A DNA stretch of 45,012 nucleotides, from contig PCYA01000012.1 in the NCBI GenBank assembly GCA_002762795.1, positions 1-45,012 on the forward strand, read 5' to 3'. The position numbers and the translations under genes are program-made. Below, one piece after another: positions 4,525-33,217 of this stretch (positions are counted from its first letter, which is position 1; each line of letters opens with the position of its first letter). Origin of the DNA: Candidatus Woesearchaeota archaeon CG10_big_fil_rev_8_21_14_0_10_37_12. Its GTDB lineage: Archaea; Nanobdellota; Nanobdellia; Woesearchaeales; ARS49. The notes beneath the pieces are model-generated. The model was not told the origin of the DNA and ran no database searches. It saw nothing but the letters and a program-made list of their open reading frames with translations.

Positions 4525-5478
4525 ATGTCAGACATAACAACCATATGGACAGAAAAATACAGACCAAAAACATTTGAAGATCTCACAGGCCAAACAGAAA
4601 TCATAAAAAAACTTAAAGCATTCATAGAAAAACAAAACATACCACACTTACTCTTTGCAGGACCAGCAGGCATAGGAAAAAGCACACTTGCTTTGATCAT
4701 CGCACGCACGTTTTTCGGAGAACATTACAGAGAAAACTTCTTAGAACTAAACGCAAGCGATGAAAGAGGAATAGACGTTGTACGAGTAAAAGTCAAAGAT
4801 TTTGCACGAACAAAAGCACTCGGAAACGTACCATTCAAAATCATCTTTCTTGATGAATGCGACGCGCTCACAAAAGAAGCACAACAAGCACTCAGAAGAA
4901 CAATGGAAAACTACACCAGCACGTGCAGGTTTGTACTTGCAGCAAACTACAGCAGCAAAATAATAGACCCAATACAAAGCAGATGCGCAGTCTTCAGATT
5001 CAAACCACTCAGCAACGAACACGTCGAACAACTAATTACAAAAATCGCAACACAAGAAAACTTGTCCATAGGACAAGAAGCAAAAAACGCACTAATAACC
5101 ATTGCAGAAGGAGATTGCAGACGAGTAGTCAATTTATTACAAAGCGGAGCAGCAGCAGGAGAAATAACACCTGACAATGTCTATTCCCTCGCAAGCTATG
5201 CAAAACCAACAGAAATCAAAGAAACACTCAACTTAGCACTAGCAGGAAAATTTGTGGAAAGCAGAGACAAACTCCTAAACATCATGCTAACATATGGACT
5301 GTCTGCAGTTGACATTATCAAACAAATACAGTCAACAATCTGGCAATTAGACATTTCAAACAGAAAAAAAGTACAACTCATAGACAAATGCGGAGAAACA
5401 GAATTCAGAATAGTAGAAGGAAGCGACGAATTTTTGCAATTAGAAGCTCTGTTAGCGCAGTTTATTCTGAATGAGTAA
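4525..5478 (+). CDS. rfcS: Replication factor C small subunit (clamp loader)
   Basis: AAA+ subunit of the clamp loader that opens PCNA and places it on primed DNA. Visible motifs are the N-terminal WTEKYRPKTFEDLTGQ box, Walker A GPAGIGKST near residue 52, Walker B IIFLDECD near 110 (the usual RFC variant of DEAD) and the SRC motif in QSRCAVFRF near 152. A C-terminal helical collar follows. The length of 317 residues is normal for archaeal RfcS. The large subunit gene is not in this window. The structured element at 5477 begins at its stop codon. Confidence 0.96.
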   Translation: MSDITTIWTEKYRPKTFEDLTGQTEIIKKLKAFIEKQNIPHLLFAGPAGIGKSTLALIIARTFFGEHYRENFLELNASDERGIDVVRVKVKDFARTKALGNVPFKIIFLDECDALTKEAQQALRRTMENYTSTCRFVLAANYSSKIIDPIQSRCAVFRFKPLSNEHVEQLITKIATQENLSIGQEAKNALITIAEGDCRRVVNLLQSGAAAGEITPDNVYSLASYAKPTEIKETLNLALAGKFVESRDKLLNIMLTYGLSAVDIIKQIQSTIWQLDISNRKKVQLIDKCGETEFRIVEGSDEFLQLEALLAQFILNE

Positions 5479-5796
5479 AGAGAGGACAGTAGCTCCTCTG
5501 GCTCTCTGTTTTTCGCAAGGTCCTCTCCTTAAACCTCACCTGCACTTCTGAAAGTAGAAAGCCAGATGATTACTTGTGCTTTAATATCGTTTGCGCTACC
5601 GCCCCAAACGCGATGGTTTGTTGTGTTACTTTTTCTCAACGGTTTTTAATGCCACCAAGCCTACTATTGTGACTCCGCTTTGCTACGTCCCAAAATATTA
5701 ATTTCGCTATCGCAAAATCAATACATCCTCAGCAAAAGCAAACATAAAATGACTGTTTGCGTTTTCTATTTTTAGATAAATGGGGTGCTTTAAAGA
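5477..5796 (+). ncRNA. Structured repeat element, copy A (candidate pseudoknotted RNA)
   Basis: About 320 bases that align with 33251-33513 and, for the first part, with 7874-7996. Stem a is GAGAGGA (5480-5486) with TCCTCTC (5521-5527). Stem b is CTGGCT (5498-5503) with AGCCAG (5560-5565). Their order a-b-a'-b' crosses, which makes a pseudoknot. Two further hairpins are kept in copy C: CGTTTG/CAAACG (5588-5610) and GCAAACA/TGTTTGC (5738-5760). A GGGGTG near the 3' end (5782-5787) could pair with the CCCC near 5602. This copy holds roughly 60 extra bases around 5660-5730. There is no convincing ORF. The transcribed strand and any function are unknown; a non-autonomous mobile element is the main alternative. 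Confidence 0.55.
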
Positions 5797-5870
5797 GGGA
5801 GTCTCGCAAAAATGGCCAAGCGCAAGTTCTTCCTATTTATTGAAAATCAGACGAAGAATTTCTACAAAAT
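5797..5870. other. Short gap after copy A, nothing recognised
   Basis: Between the end of the structured element and the stop of the lipoprotein gene. No gene or clear signal is seen. Confidence 0.4.
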
Positions 5871-6803
5871 TTATTCTCCAGAATTCTGAACTCTGAGCGT
5901 TGTCTGGGTAATCTGATTATAATCATAACCAACCTCAACACCAACAATCTGCTCAAAATCAGTACCAGTGTTCACATCCTGAGAACAAGTAATTGTTTTC
6001 TGACCATTATACAAAGTAACCTCCCCTTCAACACCTTCTGTTGTTTGCGACAAACCAGTACACTGCAAGCCAGGCAAAGAAGTAACAACACGAACACGCG
6101 CTTTATTCTCAAACGCACGAGAACTTGTATCACAACCAGAACCAACCTGATACAAAGAACCATCACCAACATTCACAACATCAAAAGAAAAACCAACCTT
6201 ATTTCTACCCCTTGATGCTTCCTGGAAATTTCTAACCTGAACAGGAGAACCGCTGTTAAACACAGACTTTGACTCAGTAACTTCGCAAAGACTTTGCCTT
6301 GTTGACAACACATTCTCCCTAATACACAACTTGCTTACTGCACGGCTGGCATACGCATAACACAATTCAGCACGCAACGGGAACTCTGCAACAGCACCAG
6401 CAATCCTCGATGCGTGATTCAAACCAGAAAACTCAACAAACACTGGTGGGCCAGGAATAATATTTCCAGAAGGCTCTTTACGCGTTTCCAGCACATCATC
6501 AAGAACAGGAGAGATAAGCAACTGAGCTTCTGTTCTGCCAAACTGTGCAGGATTAAAACCAGATAAGCGCACTTTAACCCTACTTTTCTCAACTAAAGTT
6601 TCACCTTTGTTTTCTAAACGCACAACAACACTAAACGGATCAGTACCACCATCAAAAACCTCAGAACGAAAATCCTGAAAATTCATTATGATTCCCTGCG
6701 AACCACCAACAAAAGGATTACTCACTGTTGTAACATCTCCATCCTGCCCTTCGCAAGCTAACAAAAACAAAACCATTATTGTCAAAATAATTATTTTTTT
6801 CAT
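5871..6803 (-). CDS. Envelope lipoprotein, paralog 1
   Basis: A 310-residue predicted lipoprotein. A short hydrophobic signal ends in a lipobox with LLAC (Cys17 as the lipidated residue), followed by a polar linker and a beta-rich extracellular region. It shares with the two other lipoproteins of the block (6800-7831 and 12165-13115) the order of an LSGF-like motif, a CYAYxx segment, a Cys-containing segment before a PVxVxxxE/Q strand, and a final tyrosine-rich strand (VGYDYN here). It starts inside the stop of the upstream lipoprotein gene (ATGA at 6800-6803), so the pair form one operon. No enzyme motif is seen; a surface or binding role is likely. The specific function is unknown. Confidence 0.75.
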   Translation of the reverse strand: MKKIIILTIMVLFLLACEGQDGDVTTVSNPFVGGSQGIIMNFQDFRSEVFDGGTDPFSVVVRLENKGETLVEKSRVKVRLSGFNPAQFGRTEAQLLISPVLDDVLETRKEPSGNIIPGPPVFVEFSGLNHASRIAGAVAEFPLRAELCYAYASRAVSKLCIRENVLSTRQSLCEVTESKSVFNSGSPVQVRNFQEASRGRNKVGFSFDVVNVGDGSLYQVGSGCDTSSRAFENKARVRVVTSLPGLQCTGLSQTTEGVEGEVTLYNGQKTITCSQDVNTGTDFEQIVGVEVGYDYNQITQTTLRVQNSGE

Positions 6804-7831
6804 CTTCCAGTAGGACGAATTTCAATAGGTGTTGAAACAGACGTTCTATAACCATAATCAAGCACAACACTCAAAGGAGTAACAAACGTTGAATCCCCTT
6901 GAACACCAAGTGCAGCATGTTTTACTTCGCAATACAGCACTCCTTGCCCGTTTACTAACCGTAAATAATAATCTCCCTGATTCTCTCTATCCTGTAACAA
7001 CGGACGACACGCCTGGCTTGTTCCGGGTGCAAGGTCCAAAGCAATTCCAGAAACTTTCACTTCACTTATCTTCACATAATCAACTTCATCAAAACGCAAA
7101 CCGCCCTGATACGGACTACACTTATCAATTCTTGGTAACAGCTGAGGATTTTGATCATTACTACTTCCCAGCACAGGACCCTGACCAAGTTTAAACACAT
7201 CGCCAGATCCAACATTTGAAACACGAATTTGCAACCTTGTGAAATCAGGTGTAGGCTCAACATCAATACTTGTTACTGCAACAGGAGCGCCCTGACTCCC
7301 AAGACTAATCGGAGCAGGTGTACACACTCTTGTACGACGAGTAGCACTAAACGGAGAAGGATCAACACAGAAATTTGCAGTAGCAACTGTTTGATATGCA
7401 TAACAAGCAGTAGCAAGAACATTTGTTGCGTATTTATCAACACCAAACCCTCTCAAATCAATTCTGCCAGTAAACGTTATAGTATCAATACCGCCTTGAG
7501 TAATAAAAGGACCTCTACCACTCAACTGCGGCAATTGTTGATCGCGAGGTGTAGCATCATCTAATTTTATTATCTTATCATCAAAACCAGAAAGATGAAT
7601 ATTGCCACTATTTGGATCAACTGTATGTGTTCCCCTATTCTGCACTTCAACTAACGCAACAAACTCCTGATTATCAAACAATCTCGGAGACGGAGCACCA
7701 GGAGCAAACTGAATAAACAAACCTTCAGTACCAAAACGAAAATCCTGCACAACAGGTTCATCAGAATTAGTGGACGGCTGGCACGCTAACAAGACTGTAA
7801 ATAGCAAAACAACCATCACACTCTTTTTCAT
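6800..7831 (-). CDS. Envelope lipoprotein, paralog 2
   Basis: A 343-residue predicted lipoprotein with signal and lipobox ending in LLAC (Cys17). The mature part begins with a polar Ser/Thr/Asn linker and is beta-rich. Motifs shared with the paralogs include FGTEGLFIQF near the start, NIHLSGFDD, ACYAYQT, a VCTPAPISLGSQGAPVAV segment and a final strand VVLDYGYRTS. The repeated pattern of a beta-sandwich with an NRGT-like turn resembles CARDB or Ig-like surface domains, but I cannot assign it firmly. It is the first gene of a two-gene operon and has a TATA-like box 25 bases upstream. Confidence 0.75.
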   Translation of the reverse strand: MKKSVMVVLLFTVLLACQPSTNSDEPVVQDFRFGTEGLFIQFAPGAPSPRLFDNQEFVALVEVQNRGTHTVDPNSGNIHLSGFDDKIIKLDDATPRDQQLPQLSGRGPFITQGGIDTITFTGRIDLRGFGVDKYATNVLATACYAYQTVATANFCVDPSPFSATRRTRVCTPAPISLGSQGAPVAVTSIDVEPTPDFTRLQIRVSNVGSGDVFKLGQGPVLGSSNDQNPQLLPRIDKCSPYQGGLRFDEVDYVKISEVKVSGIALDLAPGTSQACRPLLQDRENQGDYYLRLVNGQGVLYCEVKHAALGVQGDSTFVTPLSVVLDYGYRTSVSTPIEIRPTGR

Positions 7832-7850
7832 ACAACCAATTAACTAATAT

Positions 7851-7861
7851 GCTTTTAAATA
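7851..7861 (-). promoter_or_regulatory. TATA-like box of the lipoprotein pair
   Basis: Minus-strand TATTTAAAAGC centred about 25 bases before the ATG at 7831. It directly abuts the half copy of the structured element on the other strand. Confidence 0.45.
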
Positions 7862-7873
7862 CTTTGTGTTTTT

Positions 7874-7996
7874 AAAGAGAGGAGAGAAGCTTCTCTGGCT
7901 TGCAATCTGTCAATGCTGTCCTCTCCTTAAACTACACCTGCAATTCTAAAAAAGGAAAGCCAGATGATTAGCTTACGCTTTGATGTTGTTTGCTTG
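7874..7996 (+). ncRNA. Structured repeat element, copy B (5' half only)
   Basis: Keeps both crossing stems of copies A and C: GAGAGGA 7877-7883 with TCCTCTC 7919-7925, and CTGGCT 7895-7900 with AGCCAG 7958-7963. The spacers are 11, 18 and 32 bases, against 11, 17 and 32 in A and C. Similarity fades after GTTTGC at 7988, where the stop codon (7997-7999) of the minus-strand gene begins. The 3' hairpins of the full copies are absent. It lies antisense to the upstream region of the lipoprotein operon. Confidence 0.5.
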
Positions 7997-9499
7997 CTAT
8001 TTATTGTGTCCATATGCTTTTGCATGACTATTTGCCCAATTGTCATGATGTCTTTTAAGCAATTCATAGAATCTCTTTTCTTGAGCTTGCAAGTCGCGTA
8101 TATGTTCTACTTCTCTATTCACATGATCACGCTGTTGCTTCCTTTTAAGATCGTATTCGCGAGCATCCTGCCGCAAAATTCTTTGCCATTCCCTTTCCCT
8201 CAGTCTCTCTTCCTTATCCAAACGCTCATAAGTCTTTTTCGCAACATACGCGTTGACTCTTTGCGCCATGTCAGCTCCATATTTATCAACAAGCTCAGAA
8301 TAACTCAATTTACCAACCTGTTCAACAAAATCTTTACCGCCTGAAAACGGATTTTTTGTATGAATATGATGCAAATAAACGCCAGCAGTCAGACCCCACA
8401 CAGAAAGAGAAAAAACAACAGGACTAATATACTCATTTCTCAACCAACCATAAATTCTACTCAAACCAGCTTTAACAACCATACCAACAGAATCACTTTT
8501 TTCTTTAACACATGCACCAAAATCCAGTAAATTACGACACGTAAAATCAGCAGCTCTAACACCTGCGATATAATAATTAAACTTGCTTAACAATTTTTTT
8601 GCAAATTTTACATCTTTCTCATATGCTTTCTTAAATAACGCATTATCGATTCGCTTCACAGCACTATCAATACGCTGCCGATTCTCCAGTTCCCAAGCAC
8701 AAACTTCATCCTCAACAGGCTTGATTAATTCAAGCCAATCAGCACCAGCAGAAGCAGTACAAGCAAATAATGTTTTCTTTTTTTCAACAGAATCATAAAA
8801 TTCACGCTCTAACCCTTGCAAACTTTTAGCATTACTGAACGCGACCTCGCGTAACTTCAAATTACTCACCACACTCTTAGCACGAGCCAAATCAAGTAAA
8901 ATAAACCTATCATAAAAACGATCTCCAAAGAACTTCTGGAAAAAATAAGAATGACACTTTACCCTTAAAATTGCACGTTTCAACCTATCACTAACATCAA
9001 TAACTTCCTGACAAGCACTTTGTCTACATGTTTGCCAGTCACGATTAACAAAATCTTCTAATCCGACAAGCACGCGTTTAACTTCCTCTTTTAATTTCTG
9101 TTTTTTCTCAATAAAAGAGTCACTTGCAACAACTTTCAACGCATCAATAAGAGGTTTCTTTTTTTCAGCCCATTCTTTTTTAATTAACTTTTTTGTTGAA
9201 TTAATTTCGTACATAGCTTGTTGCTTCTCTTTTTCACTGTGCACATCGGCGAATTTCTTTCTCAGCAACCTTGTTTTCTCTTCAACCCACCTGTCAAAAT
9301 CAGCCACTTTTTTCTTCGCCTTAGCAGCATTTTCAAGCAACCCAACATGCGCCTCAACTTTGTCATATACGCCCGCGGCATACCACAAATAATCATTAAA
9401 CTCAACCAAATCTTCACTAACAAAATCAACACTGCAAAGTTCTTCAAGTTCATATTCGCCTTTCTTGACAGCATCCCTTAAATCATATCTTAAACTCAT
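7997..9499 (-). CDS. Helical membrane protein with C-terminal charged coiled coil
   Basis: A 500-residue protein I do not recognise. Residues 1-355 are charged and mostly helical, with no signal peptide. One hydrophobic segment lies at about 359-377, and the rest (about 400-500) is a very charged coiled coil rich in Arg, Glu, Lys and Gln. It is a paralog of the next upstream gene (9540-12101) over the N-terminal part. Both start with an LE-x-LC motif near residue 20 and share K-F-N-x-Y-x-x-G-V-x-A-x4-C just before the membrane segment (306-321 here). The likely picture is a cytoplasmic helical domain anchored in the membrane. The C-terminal coil could be a partner-binding or cytoskeletal-like rod, which is a guess. 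Confidence 0.7.
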   Translation of the reverse strand: MSLRYDLRDAVKKGEYELEELCSVDFVSEDLVEFNDYLWYAAGVYDKVEAHVGLLENAAKAKKKVADFDRWVEEKTRLLRKKFADVHSEKEKQQAMYEINSTKKLIKKEWAEKKKPLIDALKVVASDSFIEKKQKLKEEVKRVLVGLEDFVNRDWQTCRQSACQEVIDVSDRLKRAILRVKCHSYFFQKFFGDRFYDRFILLDLARAKSVVSNLKLREVAFSNAKSLQGLEREFYDSVEKKKTLFACTASAGADWLELIKPVEDEVCAWELENRQRIDSAVKRIDNALFKKAYEKDVKFAKKLLSKFNYYIAGVRAADFTCRNLLDFGACVKEKSDSVGMVVKAGLSRIYGWLRNEYISPVVFSLSVWGLTAGVYLHHIHTKNPFSGGKDFVEQVGKLSYSELVDKYGADMAQRVNAYVAKKTYERLDKEERLREREWQRILRQDAREYDLKRKQQRDHVNREVEHIRDLQAQEKRFYELLKRHHDNWANSHAKAYGHNK

Positions 9500-9510
9500 A
9501 ACCGGCCTCG

Positions 9511-9524
9511 TTTAATATATATTT
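9511..9524 (-). promoter_or_regulatory. AT-rich TATA-like box before the gene at 7997-9499
   Basis: Minus-strand AAATATATATTAAA about 15-25 bases before the ATG at 9499. It suggests this gene has its own promoter although the upstream gene ends only 40 bases away. Confidence 0.35.
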
Positions 9525-9539
9525 TCCGACTATTGACTG

Positions 9540-12101
9540 TTAATAACTGACACTAACTCCTGCGCTAAACAATTCATCAGTATCATCACCTGAACGATTT
9601 ACATAATCAACAACAAAACCAATAGGAGGACTATTCATACCAGCTGAATATTCTAAACCAAAACGCAAGCCAACATCAAAAAAATCCTGCTTAAAAGTTT
9701 CCTTCCCAATGATCTTTTCCTTAACAGATCTTACATAAGGCATTAAACCAAGCACGATACCCGCACCATTTTCCACTTGACCATTTAAGAAAGTACTATA
9801 ACCATTAACATAATAATTTCTCAAATCAAAAACACAAACAACTCCAGTCTGCAAACTCAACACATCATAAGAAAACAATCCATCATGCTCCACTCGTCTA
9901 AAAAAACCAGAAGATGCAGAATAAACTCCAATACGCTCCTTGCTGTACCCGCCAAACAAACTAAAGGGGTCGCCACTAAAACCATAGTTAAAAGCACGAT
10001 CCAACCACTTTGAATCAGCCAAATCATAACTGCCTGCGCGCAAATCTTTCTTACCAACCCCGAACAGTTTTTGTGACAAAGAACCATTAACCAAAAAACT
10101 CTTTAAATCTCCACTTTTTTTAAACTCAGGGTTATGCTCCTCGCGTTCAACAACGAAATTATCATCAAACCATTTGCCAGTAAGCAACACACCATTTAGT
10201 TTCTCTTCAAGATTGTATTTCCCATTTCCTGCCTGCACAGTCAAATCAGCAAAAGCAACACCCGGAACTCTCAAACCAACATTCAAACCATAAACTGAAG
10301 AACGCGCAACCAACTTTCTGTCAATACTCGCATCAGGCGCAGAAACCAACTCTCCATGTGTTGTCATTTGATTTGTACCTACAAAAGGCTCCAAATAAAA
10401 CAAAGGAATACCATCAACAAAAAAAGAATCCAAACCCAAACCAAACTTCACTCCCAAACCATTAGTACTCAAACCGTTATCAAGCAACTCTCTACTGCCA
10501 AACAAACGCAACGTGGGATGCACAGACTGACCATCCAACAAATTTCCTCGCAAATATAACCCGAGCTGACCATTCTTAAAATCATTTCCAACAGTGCCGC
10601 CAGCAAAAATTACTGCATCAAGCAAAGACAAATTAATATCATCCCCTTTAATGTCCTTGTCACTATTTTCAACTGGCAGATCAACTGGCTTGGGCTGCGC
10701 ATCATAACAATCAGGCAAAACAGCTGCGATTTTTTTATGACCCCTTTTTTCAGCCTCAGAAAGCCAAACACGGGCTTCCTCTTCAATAAACTCTTCCTTG
10801 CAAGGCACTTCAACCCCTTTGCTCGCGTCAACTCCAATAACTTCTTCCTCGTCATGTGACTCACTCTGATACACTAACTCGCATCCCTTATCAACAAAAG
10901 ACAAACACTCTCCAAGCCTTGCTTCTAAACTAATATTGCTGCTTCCACTTAAATCAGGAGATGAAAGCACATTACTCTCAGAAGCAACAACTTGAATAGC
11001 TGCATCAACCCTGATCACGTAATTTAATTCTCGCACAACATCTTCTTCAAACTCTTCCGAATAATCATCGCTTGTCTCAGACGAACAATCGCGCACAAGA
11101 ACGCTCATTTTCTCTATAGGCTGTTGTGAATAATTTTCTTCTGCATTATTCAACGCACTTCTTGGAGAAGTCTGATTGTTTTTTATGGATTTTTCAAAAC
11201 TATCTATAACTGGTGAAACATCTTTACTCTCAATTACCCCCGAGAGACGCTCAAAATAATCCTTCACATCACAACTATAAACACCCCCGAAAACCCCGCA
11301 AGAAGATACCAAAGCAACAGCAGTGCGCACGACCAACGCCTTGTTCACAAACTTTACAAATTTTGAACACCAACTATTATCCGCGTACACGCCCCTCAAA
11401 TAACCATTAAACTTTTCAGTTAATACCTCTACACGCTTCAAATCATAATCAACATCCAATACTTCCCGTGCACCACTCAATCCCTTTAACGCACGCTCTG
11501 CTTCAGACAACTCATCAAGAACAACATCCTTGTTAACACCAACAAGCCCATCTAATTTTCTCCTAACATCAATAACAGCAGAATTCAAACCAGCATACAC
11601 AACATCATGCTTAGACTTTCTTTCAGACTCTAAACTTTTGCAATTCTCAACAAAACTATACAACAAAGAATTTTCCACCTTCAACAAATCAACAAAACCT
11701 GCAAGATCAGACTCAACACAAGCCTTATGATCCAAAAAATCAGAACTAGCAACTCTATCAACAACAGATTTCCCGTCAACACAATACTTATTTTCCCACT
11801 CAATAATACGCTTCTGAACACTCTGAAGTGCTTTCCCAGAATCACTATCTAATGAATTATTTAAACAATCACGAACAGAAATTTCCAAGCTTCTGATTTC
11901 TGCAAGTTCGGCCTTGGCACGCTCAGCTTTTTCCTCAAAATTTTCACATCCCTCATACACTTTCAAACAAGCATCAGCATCATAAGCAACAGACTTTAAC
12001 TTAACAACGCGTTCATCATCAAACAACCCATTGCGGCAAAGCACCTCAAGAGTATCATTAACATCCTGCAACGTACGTTCTAAATGTTTTTTCACACTCA
12101 T
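9540..12101 (-). CDS. Membrane protein with helical N-terminal module and outer-membrane-barrel-like C-terminal domain
   Basis: An 853-residue protein in three parts. Residues 1-245 are helical and charged. A hydrophobic segment lies at about 255-275, and a long acidic Ser-rich linker at about 280-500. Residues about 505-853 are beta-rich with alternating hydrophobic strands such as GLGVKFGLGLDSFFV, YGLNVGLRV, FDVGLRFGLEYS and GFVVDYV. The chain ends in LFSAGVSVSY, which has the alternating pattern and terminal aromatic residue of bacterial outer-membrane beta-barrels. Archaea of this type are not known to have an outer membrane, so the resemblance is unexpected. The N-terminal module is paralogous to the gene at 7997-9499. 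Whether the C-terminal part really forms a membrane barrel is inference; a soluble or secreted beta domain is the alternative. Confidence 0.7.
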   Translation of the reverse strand: MSVKKHLERTLQDVNDTLEVLCRNGLFDDERVVKLKSVAYDADACLKVYEGCENFEEKAERAKAELAEIRSLEISVRDCLNNSLDSDSGKALQSVQKRIIEWENKYCVDGKSVVDRVASSDFLDHKACVESDLAGFVDLLKVENSLLYSFVENCKSLESERKSKHDVVYAGLNSAVIDVRRKLDGLVGVNKDVVLDELSEAERALKGLSGAREVLDVDYDLKRVEVLTEKFNGYLRGVYADNSWCSKFVKFVNKALVVRTAVALVSSCGVFGGVYSCDVKDYFERLSGVIESKDVSPVIDSFEKSIKNNQTSPRSALNNAEENYSQQPIEKMSVLVRDCSSETSDDYSEEFEEDVVRELNYVIRVDAAIQVVASESNVLSSPDLSGSSNISLEARLGECLSFVDKGCELVYQSESHDEEEVIGVDASKGVEVPCKEEFIEEEARVWLSEAEKRGHKKIAAVLPDCYDAQPKPVDLPVENSDKDIKGDDINLSLLDAVIFAGGTVGNDFKNGQLGLYLRGNLLDGQSVHPTLRLFGSRELLDNGLSTNGLGVKFGLGLDSFFVDGIPLFYLEPFVGTNQMTTHGELVSAPDASIDRKLVARSSVYGLNVGLRVPGVAFADLTVQAGNGKYNLEEKLNGVLLTGKWFDDNFVVEREEHNPEFKKSGDLKSFLVNGSLSQKLFGVGKKDLRAGSYDLADSKWLDRAFNYGFSGDPFSLFGGYSKERIGVYSASSGFFRRVEHDGLFSYDVLSLQTGVVCVFDLRNYYVNGYSTFLNGQVENGAGIVLGLMPYVRSVKEKIIGKETFKQDFFDVGLRFGLEYSAGMNSPPIGFVVDYVNRSGDDTDELFSAGVSVSY

Positions 12102-12117
12102 AAATCAAGAAAAAGCA

Positions 12118-12129
12118 CATTATACTTTC
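12118..12129 (-). promoter_or_regulatory. TATA-like box before the gene at 9540-12101
   Basis: Minus-strand GAAAGTATAATG centred about 23 bases before the ATG at 12101. A second AT-rich run (minus TATATACTAAATAAA) lies about 12 bases further upstream. Confidence 0.35.
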
Positions 12130-12164
12130 TTTATTTAGTATATAATTCTTAAGATAGTATAAGC

Positions 12165-13115
12165 TTAAATAAATTTTTTAATAGTCAACATAAACGATTT
12201 AGAAGTAACATACCCATAATTAATTTTGATCGATAACAAACTTGTAAATGTTCCTGCAGAAACATCAAGCAAAGCATTATCATTTACACGGCAAATGATA
12301 GCTGCATCTTTACCTTTCTCCAATAAAATTGCAGGATTAACACCACAATCAAGATCCCCACTAGGCAAACTTGCAGACACAGAAACTTTATTGAAACCAG
12401 CACTACCTATTTCACCAGTTACAGAAGTACCGCGCAACAAAGACAAACCTCCCTGACTGCCACACGCAACATCCAACAAAGAGCTATCAACAACGTGTCC
12501 GTTGCCAAGATTTCTCATGTTAATAACAAACGTTGGTCTGATTTTTCCTGTTGCTTGATCGCGACTGAAAATTTGCTCCACACTTTCAATAGCAACAGGA
12601 GCACCCTGACCACCTCTCAAATTTATCGTATCAGGTTTGCACACCTTTCTTGGATTTGCCTGCTGAATATCAGTATCAATGCAAACATGAACTGTCGCGT
12701 TTGTTTTATACGGATAACACGCCAAAAAAATAACGGGAGTATCGTACCCTTTAATGAGTTGAGGGAGCAGCTTTGCAGTCATCCTGCTTTCAACGACAGA
12801 AAACCCACCAGAAGGATCATAAGGAGTTCTTCCCTGCAAATCAAAAACGCCCTTGCTCGTTCTGCCTTCTGCAACAACATAATTCTCTTCAGTTATCCAA
12901 ACATATTTTCCTTCATTTATATTGGCAGCCCCGTGATTTCGTAACTCAATCAACATATCAAAATATGAACTTTCAAAAACATCAACAAGATTTGTATCAA
13001 AAAATTTAAGCTCTAAACCAGACGTGCCAGTATGAACATCAACTAATTGAGTCTGCCGCAACCCTGGCTGGCAAGCAAATAACACCAACAATAAGAAAAG
13101 TAAGTATTTTTTCAT
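12165..13115 (-). CDS. Envelope lipoprotein, paralog 3
   Basis: A 316-residue predicted lipoprotein with lipobox LFAC (Cys15). It is related to the two lipoproteins at 5871-7831. Shared features are TGTSGLELKF near the start, an ELRNHGAANI turn, ACYPYKT, an RKVCKPDTINLRGGQGAPVA segment and a final strand INYGYVTS. It is coupled to the multi-spanning membrane protein upstream by an ATGA overlap (13112-13115), so the two products probably act together at the membrane. The pattern suggests one lipoprotein gene duplicated to give the pair at 5871-7831. No catalytic motif is seen. Confidence 0.75.
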   Translation of the reverse strand: MKKYLLFLLLVLFACQPGLRQTQLVDVHTGTSGLELKFFDTNLVDVFESSYFDMLIELRNHGAANINEGKYVWITEENYVVAEGRTSKGVFDLQGRTPYDPSGGFSVVESRMTAKLLPQLIKGYDTPVIFLACYPYKTNATVHVCIDTDIQQANPRKVCKPDTINLRGGQGAPVAIESVEQIFSRDQATGKIRPTFVINMRNLGNGHVVDSSLLDVACGSQGGLSLLRGTSVTGEIGSAGFNKVSVSASLPSGDLDCGVNPAILLEKGKDAAIICRVNDNALLDVSAGTFTSLLSIKINYGYVTSKSFMLTIKKFI

Positions 13116-15088
13116 GGCTGCACCCTCTCATGATACACAGCAACAGGAACTAGCTCCTGCAAATTATATGTATAACTAGCAGCAACTTCAATGTTTCTAA
13201 TCGCTAAAGGAGCATTACCCAAAAGGACAGCAGCATCCTTTACATCTGTATTAATCCGTAACGTGCTAATGCCTGCAATTTCCTGTTTCTTTGAAAACAA
13301 ACTATCAATATCATCTCTCTGCAGAGCACATATGCAAGGATCACTTGTTCCACAAGCAGAATCACAACCAGGCCTATTTTTACCCTCTATGGCTGTAACA
13401 GCCAATCCAGGAGGAAGCTTGAACGAAAAAGATTCAACATTCCCGAGTCTTCCTTCCCAAAGATCCTCAACAGTAATTTTCACAGTAGGACCATGCATAT
13501 CTTCTGCAACAGGAACAGGCAAACTACCAAGCCCCACACCTATTCCAACAGGACCAGAAGTAAACACAGCTTTAGGATCCTTATCAGAAATACCAAACTC
13601 TGCAAGAGGATCAGTCTTCTCTCGAGTGTACGCGCGTAACCTTGTCTGCTCCATAAAGTACCCACGCATGTACGCCTCAGTTTTGAAATTAAACGCAACA
13701 TCAATCACAATCATATACTGCCCGTCACTAAGATCTCTTGGATTAATCACACAACCAATATCTATTGGAGGATCACCATGAACCATCACAAAACTATCAT
13801 CCGGTCTCACAAGCCCACTCACATTACCTGTAAGATTCTCAGCATGACAAGTAATTCTCACATTAACAGGAGCACTATCTTCAAAACCTTCAAGACTTAA
13901 CTCACCGTATACCAAAATAGGTTCAGTAAACCTGCCCGGCTGTTCAGGAGGAACAAACACCCTCTTACTATCAGTACCAACATTATCCAAAAACAAACCC
14001 ATTTTTTTCACAGCATACTTATCAACTTTACCAATCTGAATATCCTCACTATAAATTGCAACCTGACGCTGACCAAACTGTTTTATCCTGCCAGGAACAT
14101 CACGAAAAGTACGAATAAACCTAAACCAAAGCTCCTGCTGCAAAGCAATCATACGCCCAAAACGACTATTAGGATCAACAGCAACCTTACCTTCTTCAGG
14201 CTCTTCTTCAACACTAATCAAGGATAAAATAACCAAAAAAAGAACAACACTAACAATACCCACAATAACTGCAACTCCAATACTTTGTTTCTCCCAGCCA
14301 AGCCAAATACAACCAGCAAGCAAACCAACAATCCCTGCCCAAGGAGAACCAAAAACCCACGCAGTTATTGTCATCAACACAAGCGGAGCAAGATAATACA
14401 AAAAATTAATTCGTCCATGTTTCACATCAAGATGCAACAACACATAAATAATCGTTACAACAAGAGTTATTACAAATGCAAAGAAAGCTGAAAACATCCC
14501 ACTAAAATAACCCGCTAATGTAATAATCAAACCAATAATAAAAATAACAACAGTATTGCGAAGAACATTCCTATTCTCACCGCCCCACAAATTTTGTATG
14601 ACTTGACGCAATCCAGGAGCATTCATGAAAAGCAACAAAATTACTGCAACACCCACAAGCCCTAAACGCAACCAAATTGAAAGAAAACCACCACTAAAAA
14701 AAAACAAACCCAAAGTTACAATAACAAAAACTACATTTGCAAACACTTGTCTGCTTGATTGCGTAAACGCATGAATTGCTGCACCAGTCCTGCCAGATTC
14801 ACGAACAACATTTCCAGCACGCCTCAGTCTGCCACTCTCACTTTCTGAATCATGTGATTCAGGAGCCCAGCCGTCAGGACTTCTTCTTGGACGTTCTCTG
14901 CTTTCTTCAGGTTCAATTTCATGTTCTCTAGAATCAAGATCAAGCTCTTCACTACTCTCGCGTGCATGAGAACCCGATTCAGAAATCTCTGAAGCAGCGC
15001 GTTCAGGCTCTTTACGACCTTTTCTCCTGAAACCAGTTACCTCTCCACTTTCCTCATCAACAATATCTTCAAATTCATCCTCTGCCAT
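13112..15088 (-). CDS. Multi-spanning membrane protein with disordered N-terminus and extracellular domain
   Basis: A 658-residue protein I cannot assign to a named family. Residues 1-105 are very polar, rich in Glu, Ser and Arg, and probably disordered and cytoplasmic. About seven or eight hydrophobic segments follow between residues 115 and 300. The remaining 350 residues are beta-rich and probably outside. Near the end an SYTYN strand and a VAVYHE strand recall the final strands of the neighbouring lipoproteins, so the outer domain may be a distant relative. It lies 16 bases after the single-spanning gene at 15105 and overlaps the lipoprotein gene by four bases, giving a three-gene operon. 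Confidence 0.7.
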   Translation of the reverse strand: MAEDEFEDIVDEESGEVTGFRRKGRKEPERAASEISESGSHARESSEELDLDSREHEIEPEESRERPRRSPDGWAPESHDSESESGRLRRAGNVVRESGRTGAAIHAFTQSSRQVFANVVFVIVTLGLFFFSGGFLSIWLRLGLVGVAVILLLFMNAPGLRQVIQNLWGGENRNVLRNTVVIFIIGLIITLAGYFSGMFSAFFAFVITLVVTIIYVLLHLDVKHGRINFLYYLAPLVLMTITAWVFGSPWAGIVGLLAGCIWLGWEKQSIGVAVIVGIVSVVLFLVILSLISVEEEPEEGKVAVDPNSRFGRMIALQQELWFRFIRTFRDVPGRIKQFGQRQVAIYSEDIQIGKVDKYAVKKMGLFLDNVGTDSKRVFVPPEQPGRFTEPILVYGELSLEGFEDSAPVNVRITCHAENLTGNVSGLVRPDDSFVMVHGDPPIDIGCVINPRDLSDGQYMIVIDVAFNFKTEAYMRGYFMEQTRLRAYTREKTDPLAEFGISDKDPKAVFTSGPVGIGVGLGSLPVPVAEDMHGPTVKITVEDLWEGRLGNVESFSFKLPPGLAVTAIEGKNRPGCDSACGTSDPCICALQRDDIDSLFSKKQEIAGISTLRINTDVKDAAVLLGNAPLAIRNIEVAASYTYNLQELVPVAVYHERVQP

Positions 15089-15104
15089 AGTTTACAAACC
15101 AAGA

Positions 15105-16262
15105 TTATTCAACACGCACTTCTGCACGAACAACTTCAACATCGCTTAACGGAAGCAACTCAATGTAATTGCTGCCCTCACGAACAACACGAGAAATCTC
15201 TCTTACAAAAAAAGGAGCGCGCTGATCAATCACATCACGAATACCATTCACACTGGTTTCCAAACGCTTCACACGATTATCATCAACAAATTCAATCTCC
15301 AAAATTACATTTCTGCCCTGCAAAATATCCTCATACAAACTCGCATCAACATGGAAATACTCAATAAAACCACGACTAGGTTTTACATTTGTACGCACGC
15401 GAATCTGCTCAAACCTATAAGATCCCTTATCAATACGCATAACCAAAGTATTTTTTCCCTCACGCAAATCATCAGTGTATAATTCCTGCCTGTTCAAACT
15501 CTCACACGCAGGAACAGAAGAATAAACTACATTACCATTCAAAGTTAACGTCAACAAACCAGCCTCATTCTGATCACAAATTGGATAAAACAATAAATGA
15601 GCAGAATCAAAATTGCCAATCTCAACATTAGACAAACTAAACGTACTTACAGCTTCCCTGTTTGACACATCAAGAATATCACCAACAACCTTCACATCAG
15701 TTAAAGAATATTCACCACCAAACAAACCACCAGTTACAAAAAACTCTAATTCATTAATCTCGCGCAACAAATTTGTAGGCAAACGAACAGGAGGAGGATT
15801 ACGAACAACAATCTCATTCTCAAACAAAAGCTGACTGTTTAATTTAATTCCCAGTATTCCACCATCCTGTGCAGAAACCTGAAACGTTAAAAGCACATTA
15901 TCAACTTGTTTCGGATTATCGAGATCAAAACGAACCACTTTTCTATCTTCACTAAAAAAACTTTTGCGAACAACAAAAGGATTTTCTTCTTTCAACACTT
16001 GAGCATTTTGACGCTCAACCAAAAAAACATTCGGCAAAGGATGATCAAACTGACCAGTGGACACAAAAGATAATCTGCCAACAGACTCACTTAACAAAAC
16101 ATGCTCTCCAAGATCATATGAATCATTATCACCGTACAGCGTTCCTTCTTCCAACAACGAACGCCTACTCTCACTCGGCAAAAACAAAATATAGAAAACA
16201 AAAATTAAGGTAATAACTCCTATCAGACCTACAGCAGAGTTGCCTTCACCTCTTTTTTTCAT
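15105..16262 (-). CDS. Single-spanning membrane protein with beta-rich outer domain
   Basis: A 385-residue protein. A short basic N-terminus precedes one hydrophobic segment (about residues 11-29, GVITLIFVFYILFLP), then about 350 residues of beta-rich sequence. Two stretches repeat the same idea: LLTFQVSAQDGGILGIKLNS and LTLTLNGNVVYSS followed by LREGKNTLVMRI. These look like jelly-roll carbohydrate-binding-like strands, though I cannot name the fold. It is the first gene of a three-gene minus-strand operon. A GGTGAT ribosome site lies four bases before the ATG, so the transcript has a short leader. Confidence 0.7.
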   Translation of the reverse strand: MKKRGEGNSAVGLIGVITLIFVFYILFLPSESRRSLLEEGTLYGDNDSYDLGEHVLLSESVGRLSFVSTGQFDHPLPNVFLVERQNAQVLKEENPFVVRKSFFSEDRKVVRFDLDNPKQVDNVLLTFQVSAQDGGILGIKLNSQLLFENEIVVRNPPPVRLPTNLLREINELEFFVTGGLFGGEYSLTDVKVVGDILDVSNREAVSTFSLSNVEIGNFDSAHLLFYPICDQNEAGLLTLTLNGNVVYSSVPACESLNRQELYTDDLREGKNTLVMRIDKGSYRFEQIRVRTNVKPSRGFIEYFHVDASLYEDILQGRNVILEIEFVDDNRVKRLETSVNGIRDVIDQRAPFFVREISRVVREGSNYIELLPLSDVEVVRAEVRVE

Positions 16263-16399: not shown

Positions 16400-16852
16400 A
16401 TGATTATGAAAAAACTATTGCTTTTTGCTTTGCTAATATTATTTATTGCGCCAAGCGCATTTGCATATTACAGCTACGGGTATCCTGGACAATCTAACTA
16501 TGGCTATTCTAATCAAGAATCATCAACATACGCAAGAAACTATGAGCGAGTAAATTATCAAGAAACAGAAACCGGAAGCAGACACAGAACAGGCTGTGGT
16601 TATTACTATTATGACTGCGGATATTCAGAAACAACTAGCAGAAGCAGAAATTTTGCATTTGAATCACAAAACGAGTATGAGAGCCGAAACAGTTACACTA
16701 ACAGCTATTCACAACCATACTATAATTATCCGCAATATTCTTACCCATATTCGAGCTACAAACCATATGGCTACAGCAATTACAAATATTATTCGTACCC
16801 ATCAGGATATAACTCATACTACAAACCATATAACAACTACCAGTACTACTAA
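16400..16852 (+). CDS. Secreted tyrosine-rich protein
   Basis: A 150-residue protein with a clear signal peptide ending near AFAYYSYGY. The mature part is low complexity, made largely of Tyr with Ser, Asn, Gly, Pro and Gln. The second half repeats short YxxY units such as YNYPQYSYPYSSYKPYGY. A small central segment with two Cys (GCGYYYYDCGY) may form a disulfide. No fold or family is recognised. Tyr-rich secreted proteins elsewhere serve as sticky or cross-linked surface material, so an adhesive or coat role is possible but not shown. It overlaps the next gene by one base (TAATG), so the two are coupled. Confidence 0.75.
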   Translation: MIMKKLLLFALLILFIAPSAFAYYSYGYPGQSNYGYSNQESSTYARNYERVNYQETETGSRHRTGCGYYYYDCGYSETTSRSRNFAFESQNEYESRNSYTNSYSQPYYNYPQYSYPYSSYKPYGYSNYKYYSYPSGYNSYYKPYNNYQYY

Positions 16853-17529
16853 TGACATCAAAAATAACATGTTTGTTCTTGCTGCTTATTTTTTCTAGTC
16901 CAACATTCGCATACGAAATTTTCTTTTACAACAACCCAGCAGATATGCAAGATAACATTGCAAAAGCAAACCGAAACCAATACGATGGATATGATGCACA
17001 GGACTTTGTAGATTTTGATGATTATGCGTGCATCAGCCTTGATGATTATAACTATTATGCAAATCTTGACTCGCATGACAATCGAGACCCATTAACTGCA
17101 AAAAATATTGGAAACAAAAAATTCAAAAAACTAGGATATCAAGACCAACTCCTTATCATTAATGAAAACCATAACGATAAATGGGACAATCATGCAATCA
17201 ACGATTACAATGATATGGAGTGCTGGACACTCAAAGATTACAACCAATTTGCAGCAGAAAAACAATCAGACAAATGGGATGTTGCAAACTTCAGAGACTT
17301 TGATGACTTTGAAATAGTAGAACATGTCGGCGTAAAACGATACGGATTTATCGAACCAGACGATCTAGATGAATTTGATCTACACTACACGCACCCAAGC
17401 GCAAGAGAGTATTATGATAATTACTATAATGGGTACTCGTTTAACTTCTATGAAAACAAAGCGCCAAAGAAAAGCTGTGACTATGACTACAATGGATGTG
17501 CAAGAGAACCACCAATATTTATTCAATAA
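16852..17529 (+). CDS. Secreted Asp/Tyr-rich repeat protein
   Basis: A 225-residue protein with a signal peptide (about residues 1-20, ending TFAYE). The mature chain is strongly acidic and rich in Asp, Asn and Tyr. Three related units of about 22 residues can be seen, starting YDAQDFVDFDDY, KWDNHAINDYND and KWDVANFRDFDD. The pattern of aromatic-Asp, spacer, and an acidic-aromatic cluster could bind metal ions. Translationally coupled to the basic-to-neutral Tyr-rich protein upstream, it may form a pair with it at the surface. The family is unknown to me. A hairpin related to the start of the structured element follows at 17566. Confidence 0.72.
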   Translation: MTSKITCLFLLLIFSSPTFAYEIFFYNNPADMQDNIAKANRNQYDGYDAQDFVDFDDYACISLDDYNYYANLDSHDNRDPLTAKNIGNKKFKKLGYQDQLLIINENHNDKWDNHAINDYNDMECWTLKDYNQFAAEKQSDKWDVANFRDFDDFEIVEHVGVKRYGFIEPDDLDEFDLHYTHPSAREYYDNYYNGYSFNFYENKAPKKSCDYDYNGCAREPPIFIQ

Positions 17530-29435: not shown

Positions 29436-31271
29436 ATGATCAAAAAATGTTTTTTTCTTACACTATTCTTGTCTGTTACTGTAACTGCAACACCATTCGA
29501 TTTTGATTTTATTCAACAAGTAACAGGAAACGGATGGTTAACCAGTTGTTTCACAAACGGAAACAGAGGCGGACTCAACATAGACAATTCACCAATAGTA
29601 CTAAAATTAGACTTTCCATACACAATAGAAGCAAGATCAATAAACGCACACTGGGGAATGCACCACAGCCAATTCAACTCAGGCATAGGCATTTACAGAA
29701 ATGGACAACGAATAAACTACTCCATCGCAGCAGGAGGAACAAAAAATGAGCCAAAAATAACACCATGGGTTATAGAAACAGGAGACGAAGTAAAAAGATG
29801 CGCATTTGACTTTGTTGGAAGAGGAAAAAGCCAATTCAGAATACACTACGACGATTGGTGGGTATACACTATCCCCGGTTTTGTATACGATTTAGTGAGC
29901 AATATATGGGTGCATGATCGTTCATGGGGAGGACCAGAAAACACAGGAACCTACTGGATAAACCTAAGAGCAACACACACAGCAAACATAACATTTGGAG
30001 AAAAACAAAAAAATCTTGGAACTATCCAAGAACTCGCAAGACCATACCTGCTAGACGAACTATACAATCCTGGCTTTTACGCAGAATCTGACAAGCCTGA
30101 AATTTTATTTGAAATAACCACACAAGTTTTAGCGTGTCTTGATATGGATTTAAGCAATGCTTGCGACTATGAACAAGCAGATGCCTGCTCAGGTGCTGGT
30201 GGAGATTGGGCAAGCTATTATGACCCTCAATTACAAGCTACTGTAGGCACATGCTGTGGAATTACACCAACACACACACCAGATACTTGCCAATATTCAC
30301 AACAATTTAATACACTCTGCGGCAAAAATAATGAACAAAACTGGCAATTTGCCTCTCTAAGCATGCCTGGCATCATCAAAAATTACGCCTGCCCAGAAAA
30401 ATTTTCAACACTCAGTACAGGCACAGAACTCTATGCCTGCGGAAACAACCCATACGGACTTCAAAACATGCAAAAAATAACAGTACTAAATCATGAATTT
30501 ATTTGCGTTCCTGACCAAAAAGACATTTATGAATGTATTGGAAACAACACATTTCCATTAGTAACAAACAATCCCTTCAGAGAACAAGGAGAACACATTG
30601 TTGCAGGATCCACAACATACGAATGTCAGGAAAATGCAACCTGGACAACATACCATACGCCTTGTTTATTAGGTGAACAAAGAATAAATAATGAAACAGG
30701 ACTGATTGAGTTTTGTTCACCAACACAAGGATGGATAACTGACTTGGATGCAGATGAGGGAGCTTGTCGTGCAGCAGGAAGATTGTATAACACTATAAGA
30801 TGGACGGGAACACAATGCTGCGGGGATCCTTTAGACAACAACACACCACAAGCCATTTACGAAGAACAAAATGGACTCGGAGCTTGCTTGAACAACACAC
30901 CAATAATGAGCGGACAAACAATCACCAACAATACAATCATTAATCATCAAGGACAATTCTACCAATGCCAAGGAACCCCCCCATCAACAGAATTACAAAA
31001 CGCAGGCATCACACCCGCACATCAAGGAGTTTGCGGACAACCCTTACTCAACACAACAAGCAGCATACACAGTATTTGTTTGCCAAATGGTAAATGGTAC
31101 CAAACACCATATACAACAGTACACCAAGTAAAATCCATAAACTGGCAACCCTTAGCAACACAAATCAATCAAGGATGCTGCCCAGAAAACAAATGCTGGG
31201 ACGGAAACACCTGCAAAAACCCCGGAGAATACTACCAAATAGAAAACCAAGGATACCAATGCCAAAACTAA
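29436..31271 (+). CDS. Large secreted Cys-rich protein, tandem paralog 1
   Basis: A 611-residue secreted protein with a signal peptide (about residues 1-18, ending TVTATPFDF). The N-terminal 200 residues are beta-rich with Trp-rich motifs (INAHWGMH, WVIETGDEVKRCAFDF). The rest is Cys-rich with repeated CxxxxGxWxxY-type modules and about 30 Cys. The C-terminal 260 residues are nearly identical to those of the next gene, for example FCSPTQGWI, GACRAAGRLYNTIRWTGTQC and GCCPENKCWDGNTCKNPGEY. No transmembrane anchor is present at the C-terminus. No enzyme motif is recognised; an adhesin or extracellular matrix role is plausible. Its promoter is shared with the divergent small gene. Confidence 0.75.
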   Translation: MIKKCFFLTLFLSVTVTATPFDFDFIQQVTGNGWLTSCFTNGNRGGLNIDNSPIVLKLDFPYTIEARSINAHWGMHHSQFNSGIGIYRNGQRINYSIAAGGTKNEPKITPWVIETGDEVKRCAFDFVGRGKSQFRIHYDDWWVYTIPGFVYDLVSNIWVHDRSWGGPENTGTYWINLRATHTANITFGEKQKNLGTIQELARPYLLDELYNPGFYAESDKPEILFEITTQVLACLDMDLSNACDYEQADACSGAGGDWASYYDPQLQATVGTCCGITPTHTPDTCQYSQQFNTLCGKNNEQNWQFASLSMPGIIKNYACPEKFSTLSTGTELYACGNNPYGLQNMQKITVLNHEFICVPDQKDIYECIGNNTFPLVTNNPFREQGEHIVAGSTTYECQENATWTTYHTPCLLGEQRINNETGLIEFCSPTQGWITDLDADEGACRAAGRLYNTIRWTGTQCCGDPLDNNTPQAIYEEQNGLGACLNNTPIMSGQTITNNTIINHQGQFYQCQGTPPSTELQNAGITPAHQGVCGQPLLNTTSSIHSICLPNGKWYQTPYTTVHQVKSINWQPLATQINQGCCPENKCWDGNTCKNPGEYYQIENQGYQCQN

Positions 31272-31402
31272 AAAAGTGGAAGACATAAATAAAACATATA
31301 ACTGTTATGCCTTCCAAACGTTAGTAATAGAATTAAATTATGCGTTATTATTGTCGCTTACTAAAAAACAAAAAAATAAATTAATATAATTTACGCATCA
31401 AC

Positions 31403-33217
31403 ATGATCAACAAAAAAATATGGCTGTTTATCATCACCATTTTATCAGTTTCTACTCTTGCAACAGAATTTAATTGGGTACTCACACAAGAAGTCACAGG
31501 ACAAATAGGAGGAGGAAGATGTCATTATTCACCTTACCATGAACTTGTAGACTGGGGTCACAATAATAACTTGCCCTGGGCATCAGCATACCATCAACAA
31601 AGTTCATTCTCAGAATCAAACTCAAGACAACTACTCAAATTACCATACCCATACGAAATATCGGTAAAAGGCATGAATGTACATTGGGGACTGCATGATC
31701 TAGAAGAAGGTTATCAAGGAGGAGTATCCATATTTTCAAACAATAGATACGAAACAAGCGCAATCGCAACAGGATATACAAGAAACACATATGAAAACAC
31801 CATCTGGATAACAGCCACAGGAGACGAAATAAGAGGATGCTCATACGATTACCGAGGAGGAAGACAACCAGTACAACAAGGCAGATTCTGGGCACGCATG
31901 AATTCAAGCCCATATGCAAATACAATCATCTTTGGTGAACAAAACAAAAATATAGGACCCATTGCACGTTTTGCAAGACCTTATTTGCTTACAGACGAAG
32001 AACCTGTATTTTATGCAACACCAAATACAACAAACATACTCCTTGAAGTAACATCACAAAACATAATTGCGTGTACTGATTATGATGAAAGTGGCAAGTG
32101 CGATTATGAACAAGCAGAGGCTTGTGACAACACAGGAGGGGATTGGGCATGGTACTATGATTCTAACCTGAATAAAACAGTAAACACTTGCTGCGGCATA
32201 AGCATTGCTCCAGACACGTGCACTTATTATTCGCAAGACAACTTAATTTGCGGACAAAATGAACAACAACAATGGCAAACATTATCAAACCTACAAAAAG
32301 GAATAACAAAAAAATTACAATGCCCAACAAACATATCCGTGCTAAGCACAGGCCAACAAATACTAACCTGCGAAAAACCCAATGAACGCGCAACAACAAT
32401 CCCAAAAAATAATTTCACGCGAACAACCCTTTACGACAGAGAATTCATTTGCGTTCCTGAACAAGCTAACATATATGAATGCATCGGAAACAACACTTTT
32501 CCATTAGTAACAAGCAATCCATTCAGAGAACAAGGAGAACGCATCATTGTAGGACCAACCACGTATGAATGCCAACAAAACAGCACATGGATTGTTTACA
32601 GAACACCATGCTTAGCAGGAGAAAGAAGAACAAACGATGAAACAGGACTGATTGAGTTTTGTTCACCAACACAAGGTTGGATAATTGATTTGGACACTGA
32701 TGAGGGAGCTTGTCGTGCAGCAGGAAGATTATATAACACTATAAGATGGACAGGCACACAATGCTGTGGAGATCCTTTAGACAACAACACACCACAAGCC
32801 ATTTACGAAGAACAAAACGGACTCGGAGCTTGTTTGAACAACACACCAATAATGAGCGGACAAACAATCACCAACAACACAGTTATCAATCACCAAGGAC
32901 AATTCTACCAATGCCAAGGCACCCTTCCCTCACCAGAATTACAAAACGCAGGCATCACACCCGCACATCAAGGAGTTTGCGGACAACCCTTACTCAACAC
33001 AACAAGTAGCACACACAGTATTTGTTTACCAAATGGCAAATGGCATCAAACACCGCACACAGAAATACACCAAACAAAAACTGTAGCGTGGCAAACACTA
33101 CCCAACCAACTACAACAAGGCTGCTGCCCAGAAAACAAATGCTGGGACGGAAACACCTGCAAAAACCCCGGAGAATACTACCAAATAGAAAACCAAGGAT
33201 ACCAATGCCAAACATAA
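31403..33217 (+). CDS. Large secreted Cys-rich protein, tandem paralog 2
   Basis: A 604-residue paralog of the preceding gene with the same layout: signal peptide (about residues 1-19, ending STLATEF), a Trp-rich beta domain (MNVHWGLHD, WITATGDEIRGCSYDY) and a Cys-rich C-terminal half. The N-terminal halves have diverged clearly, but the C-terminal halves remain nearly identical in protein and DNA (about 30690-31271 against 32640-33217). This points to recent gene conversion or selection on that part. An AT-rich TATA candidate lies at about 31380-31391. A full copy of the structured element follows 33 bases after its stop. Confidence 0.75.
   Translation: MINKKIWLFIITILSVSTLATEFNWVLTQEVTGQIGGGRCHYSPYHELVDWGHNNNLPWASAYHQQSSFSESNSRQLLKLPYPYEISVKGMNVHWGLHDLEEGYQGGVSIFSNNRYETSAIATGYTRNTYENTIWITATGDEIRGCSYDYRGGRQPVQQGRFWARMNSSPYANTIIFGEQNKNIGPIARFARPYLLTDEEPVFYATPNTTNILLEVTSQNIIACTDYDESGKCDYEQAEACDNTGGDWAWYYDSNLNKTVNTCCGISIAPDTCTYYSQDNLICGQNEQQQWQTLSNLQKGITKKLQCPTNISVLSTGQQILTCEKPNERATTIPKNNFTRTTLYDREFICVPEQANIYECIGNNTFPLVTSNPFREQGERIIVGPTTYECQQNSTWIVYRTPCLAGERRTNDETGLIEFCSPTQGWIIDLDTDEGACRAAGRLYNTIRWTGTQCCGDPLDNNTPQAIYEEQNGLGACLNNTPIMSGQTITNNTVINHQGQFYQCQGTLPSPELQNAGITPAHQGVCGQPLLNTTSSTHSICLPNGKWHQTPHTEIHQTKTVAWQTLPNQLQQGCCPENKCWDGNTCKNPGEYYQIENQGYQCQT

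Follow-up and report, generated by a model that had tools for sequence, protein, structure and literature searches.

In this study, we analyzed a stretch of 45,012 nucleotides of a woesearchaeotal genome (the window) and found that one of its proteins, P0001, ends in a beta domain that is probably a member of a new and fast-evolving family of exported beta-barrels of the outer-membrane protein (OMP) type. In this reading, which we favor with moderate confidence, P0001 would be a tether to a second, outer membrane and its paralog P0006 a secreted form. The domain had been described in the initial annotation as outer-membrane-barrel-like, and that description is supported by a secreted paralog in the same genome, a syntenic homolog in another genus, a C-terminal signature shared by all three proteins and a barrel-model score that falls among those of true OMPs. 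From these sequence features we infer an exported, OMP-type transmembrane beta-barrel fold and insertion of that barrel into a membrane.

The P0001 open reading frame begins with ATG, its last residues are ELFSAGVSVSY, and the protein had no family match in Pfam or NCBIfam. Its parts are as follows:

9540–12101, minus strand: P0001, 853 residues, comprising a helical module, a likely signal anchor, an acidic linker and a C-terminal barrel-like domain
11337–12101, minus strand: N-terminal helical module, residues 1–255, with a helix-only, low-confidence model
11280–11336, minus strand: hydrophobic segment, residues 256–274, Kyte-Doolittle 19-residue maximum 1.77
10632–11279, minus strand: acidic low-complexity linker, residues 275–490 (~215 residues), with an excess of D/E
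9543–10631, minus strand: OMP-like beta domain, residues 491–853, defined by similarity to P0006 and its barrel-HMM score
9543–9560, minus strand: C-terminal beta-signal-like hexapeptide GVSVSY, with G at −6, hydrophobic residues at −5 and −3 and an aromatic residue at −1

This layout confirms the earlier description of an 853-residue protein whose C-terminal beta domain ends in LFSAGVSVSY, with the domain being slightly longer than first drawn (about residues 491–853, ~363 residues, rich in Gly and aromatic residues). Its start was placed at about residue 491 because the similarity to P0006 spans residues 471–842. The proposed tethering of the domain, through an acidic linker to a membrane-anchored helical module, was likewise recovered, as residues 301–500 contain 44 D/E versus 19 K/R and residues 256–274, the sole strongly hydrophobic segment of the protein, are likely a signal anchor. 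Since K/R residues precede that segment and D/E residues follow it, an N-in/C-out orientation is likely, and the helical module is probably cytoplasmic. The hydrophobicity of the segment is only moderate for an anchor, a point that counts against our favored reading. AlphaFold returned helices of low confidence for residues 1–300 (pLDDT 40), and a single-sequence model of the beta domain had a pLDDT of 30; both models were kept out of fold searches because poor models produce meaningless matches.

A similarity search with the beta domain against the genome itself and 95 relatives identified a second copy, P0006 (C19:45786-46967), with 34–35% identity over the whole domain (E 5.6e-48). P0006 is a stand-alone protein of 394 residues with a signal peptide, MKKILLTTAIAAAAPVAAEA, judged by eye, and the C-terminus EGGIQLSF. 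Its gene diverges from aglB, which encodes the oligosaccharyltransferase, and precedes a lipoprotein-like gene (P0004), after which comes a gene for a Gly-rich surface protein with Ig domains. When profiles were run against 353 genomes of the order and 371 of the phylum, no further clear member beyond the genome itself initially emerged, the best extra match in the phylum being chance-like (E 0.006 over 49 residues). A match in genome G153 (E 0.03) lay in an unrelated-looking protein and was rejected. It was a homolog of P0004 in G017, a genome of another genus in the same taxonomic family (E 7.5e-13), that led to the third member, P0007, a secreted protein of 359 residues with an N-terminal signal peptide by eye and the ending AGAGVYARW. 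The P0007 gene directly adjoins the P0004 homolog and has aglB on its other side, facing away, so that the order aglB, barrel-like protein, lipoprotein and Gly-rich secreted protein is identical in the two genomes. P0007 aligned to P0006 with a Smith-Waterman z of 11.8, a score reached by 0 of 400 shuffles (phmmer 21.7 bits), and much more weakly to the window copy (z 2.6); its membership in the family therefore depends on P0006 as the link.

Because the same gene order occurs in two genera, the secreted form linked to aglB probably came first, and the copy in the window would be a later fusion. The family is fast-evolving, and its clear members are confined to two genera among the 353 genomes of the order. 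In most other genomes of the taxonomic family, aglB has different neighbors, and following that synteny gained no more homologs. In each of the two genera with a stand-alone barrel-like gene, a P0004-type lipoprotein gene (L003:11036-12040 and L170:605-1444) lies next to it, making this lipoprotein a candidate partner of the stand-alone protein.

All three members end in a pattern characteristic of OMPs, G-[VILMFYWA]-x-[VILMFYWA]-x-[FYW] at the extreme C-terminus. This signature was present in 3 of 581 archaeal open reading frames, two of them (P0001 and P0006) among 379 of the genome itself and one (P0007) among 202 from other archaea. In selected regions of the Escherichia coli genome it occurred in 6 of 166, all of them OMPs (OmpF, PhoE, OmpT, OmpX, OmpG and MipA). 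Alanine at −3 was admitted after P0007 had been seen; under a stricter pattern, P0001 and P0006 are the sole archaeal reading frames retained. The three members are homologous and so do not represent three independent events, yet their divergence is large enough to suggest that the ends have been kept by selection. Each also has an apparent export signal, in P0006 and P0007 the signal peptide and in P0001 the likely signal anchor.

A hidden Markov model (HMM) of alternating barrel strands, turns and loops provided a second measure; its training set was 20 E. coli OMPs, and each sequence was scored relative to its own shuffles. With their own family left out, the E. coli OMPs scored z 2.1–7.9 (mean 4.2), whereas 48 controls had a mean of 0.11 (SD 1.11) and a maximum of 3.34, from the fimbrial protein ElfG. 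The beta domain of P0001 (scored as P0005) reached z 2.8–3.5 (P ≤ 0.004), P0006 2.2–2.6 and P0007 5.2–5.5. For the alternating strands read from the sequence in the initial annotation, the trained model placed the domain above its shuffles, whereas a naive test of hydrophobic alternation gave no excess over shuffles (P 0.50–0.67 for P0005 and 0.24–0.41 for P0006). The HMM alone is not decisive because some non-barrel beta proteins reach 3.3–4.1, among them a DUF11-like protein (4.07) and a SIMPL protein (3.48) of the same genome. When the family was compared by profile with E. coli OMPs and with controls, the AUC was 0.60–0.68, too low to be informative. These results bear on the possibility that the domain is instead a soluble secreted beta domain, such as an adhesin-like sandwich, carried on a stalk for cell-cell contact, with strands and a terminal aromatic residue that arose by convergence. 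The stalk layout fits an adhesin, and both the HMM scores of other beta-rich surface proteins and the naive alternation result are what such a domain would lead one to expect. However, the C-terminal signature is found in 3 of 3 family members and in none of those beta-rich proteins, the score of P0007 exceeds that of every non-barrel protein scored, and within the genome a high HMM score and the signature occur together only in P0001 and P0006. We regard a soluble domain, the strongest competing reading, as rather unlikely.

OMP-type transmembrane beta-barrels are regarded as a hallmark of bacteria and bacterium-derived organelles, where they are accompanied by an Omp85 insertase. No Omp85 match (PF01103) was obtained in the genome by a search that was positive in seven control bacteria, and among the 353 genomes of the order there was a single match, in G182, that was not credible. 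The statement in the initial annotation that no BAM machinery should be present was thereby upheld. The G182 match (L171, G182:C10:39553-39810) is a 117-residue fragment with an RGFREGRFRD motif that overlaps the end of a truncated RNase Z-like reading frame near a run of N, and is a probable chimera or contamination. The absence of Omp85 leaves three options: an unknown insertion route, a membrane supplied by another cell, or a domain that is not a membrane barrel. It counts in favor of a soluble domain and against our favored reading, as a barrel would have no known route of insertion. BAM acts from the periplasmic side, and insertion into a bacterial partner by the partner's own BAM is disfavored because a secreted archaeal protein would first have to reach the periplasm. 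The accompanying remark that such an archaeon should have no outer membrane was an assumption, since a few archaea are documented to have diderm envelopes (PMC4243693, PMC8871954).

The origin of the domain is a separate question. No similarity to known OMP families was detected in Pfam, NCBIfam or PDB sequences, which counts against our favored reading, although a sequence match to a known family defines those families and not the OMP fold class. No relative turned up either when viral and genome contigs were scanned by pattern and plasmids were searched with tblastn. The suggestion that the domain had been captured from bacteria was not borne out, as the Pfam, NCBIfam, PDB, plasmid and genome-pattern searches revealed no bacterial relative and in GC content and codon usage P0001, P0002 and P0006 do not stand out from the rest of the genome, an argument against recent transfer. 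A barrel captured long ago from a diderm bacterium and diverged past recognition, an account of origin that overlaps our favored reading, would explain a C-terminal signature shaped like the BAM signal of bacterial OMPs, as well as the restriction to two genera. Against it stand the same native composition and the same lack of a bacterial relative, even if such searches are weak for OMPs, and we consider an ancient capture somewhat unlikely.

Contamination by bacterial DNA or misassembly of the metagenome bin is very improbable. The genome (1.35 Mb, 99% complete) is a draft in 19 contigs, and another genome of the order, G182, holds the probably chimeric Omp85 fragment. However, the contigs that carry the two copies are long (165 and 178 kb) and place them amid archaeal genes (RFC, PheST and AglB), one copy is within a syntenic archaeal operon, and the order of aglB, barrel and lipoprotein recurs in a second genome. 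The PheS of the genome is closest to those of named Woesearchaeota genomes. The neighbors of P0001 in the window are as follows:

7997–9499, minus strand: P0002, a helical partner of 500 residues with one weak hydrophobic segment
12165–13115, minus strand: conserved lipoprotein at one flank of the insertion, next to the ortholog of the 6800 gene in 5 of 5 relatives
6800–7831, minus strand: conserved lipoprotein at the other flank of the insertion
5871–6803, minus strand: third lipoprotein of the conserved operon, adjoining the RFC small-subunit gene

Counterparts to the 12165 and 6800 lipoproteins are direct neighbors in all five relatives checked, and here P0001 and P0002 separate them on the same strand, which identifies the two genes as a lineage-specific insertion into an envelope operon. 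Homologs of the operon lipoproteins occur in 52 of 57 genomes searched, and the cluster in the relatives consists of three lipoproteins, a membrane protein and a secreted protein, with rfcS adjoining in three of five. In the window the corresponding region is 4525–16262 (three related lipoproteins, a multi-helix membrane protein and a secreted protein) and is found in nearly all relatives checked. P0002 weakly resembles P0001 just before the hydrophobic segment (E 0.005 in a three-sequence search) and may be a tandem relative of the P0001 N-terminal module; no match to P0002 was found in the relatives. A coiled-coil-like protein of 567 residues (L106, G000:C4:8242-8589), encoded beside a multi-helix membrane protein, is also weakly similar to P0002 (E 2e-4). 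Elsewhere in the window, two secreted proteins encoded in tandem (29436–33217; 611 and 604 residues) have near-identical C-terminal halves, an apparent recent duplication, and of two small secreted proteins (16400–17529) one is very rich in Tyr and Ser (150 residues) and the other rich in Asp, Tyr and Asn (225 residues).

Our favored reading of an exported barrel family would imply the following history and function. The ancestral form would have been a secreted barrel standing alone, its gene divergent from aglB and preceding the lipoprotein gene. A second copy would have been fused, through the acidic linker of ~215 residues, to the helical signal-anchor module and placed with its partner P0002 inside the conserved envelope-lipoprotein operon. 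The signal anchor would then keep the P0001 chain in the cytoplasmic membrane, the linker would cross the outer space, and the barrel would sit in a second, outer membrane belonging either to the archaeon itself or, in line with a suggestion in the initial annotation, to a partner cell, so that P0001 would act as a membrane-to-membrane tether, with P0006 and its lipoprotein potentially forming a freely secreted pore. More tentatively, some Woesearchaeota may possess true transmembrane beta-barrels without an Omp85-type insertase, the anchored version of which might bridge their own membrane to a second one, which may belong to a bacterial or archaeal partner.

Searches of the open-licence literature yielded no description of an OMP-type barrel for Woesearchaeota or other Nanoarchaeota. 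If the fold is confirmed, the proteins would represent an OMP-type barrel family in archaea without Omp85, one member of which is fused to a membrane anchor. That would imply either an uncharacterized archaeal outer membrane whose barrels are inserted by a new route, or a molecular link joining a DPANN archaeon directly to a partner membrane. The family is a concrete, expressible target for studying how DPANN archaea contact their partners.

Among known systems, the family is most readily compared with bacterial OMPs of the OmpF, OmpX, OmpG and MipA type, with which it shares an export signal, either a signal peptide or one that would export the C-terminal domain, and a final strand of the form G-hydrophobic-x-hydrophobic-x-aromatic, and with which it may also share alternating strands joined by short turns and long loops. 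It differs from them in having no detectable sequence family, in occurring in a genome without Omp85 and in the fusion of one archaeal copy to a signal anchor and long acidic linker. To our knowledge, the outer-membrane pore protein of Ignicoccus is not a large beta-barrel protein. That protein, cited in PMC4243693, forms a pore in an archaeal outer membrane, as the present family may also do. The PopA superfamily of Bdellovibrio comprises porin-like barrels with a beta-signal whose transfer into prey envelopes has been reported, and the authors of that work point to what may be a distal relative in Altiarchaeales (PMC12228718). As described, PopA would resemble the archaeal family in combining a porin-like barrel with a beta-signal. 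The tethers OmpM and Thermus SlpA link two envelope layers by means of an N-terminal helical part and a C-terminal barrel, their SLH domain binding peptidoglycan or a secondary cell-wall polymer. P0001, which would share that layout, differs from these tethers in matching no Pfam family and in carrying a likely membrane anchor.
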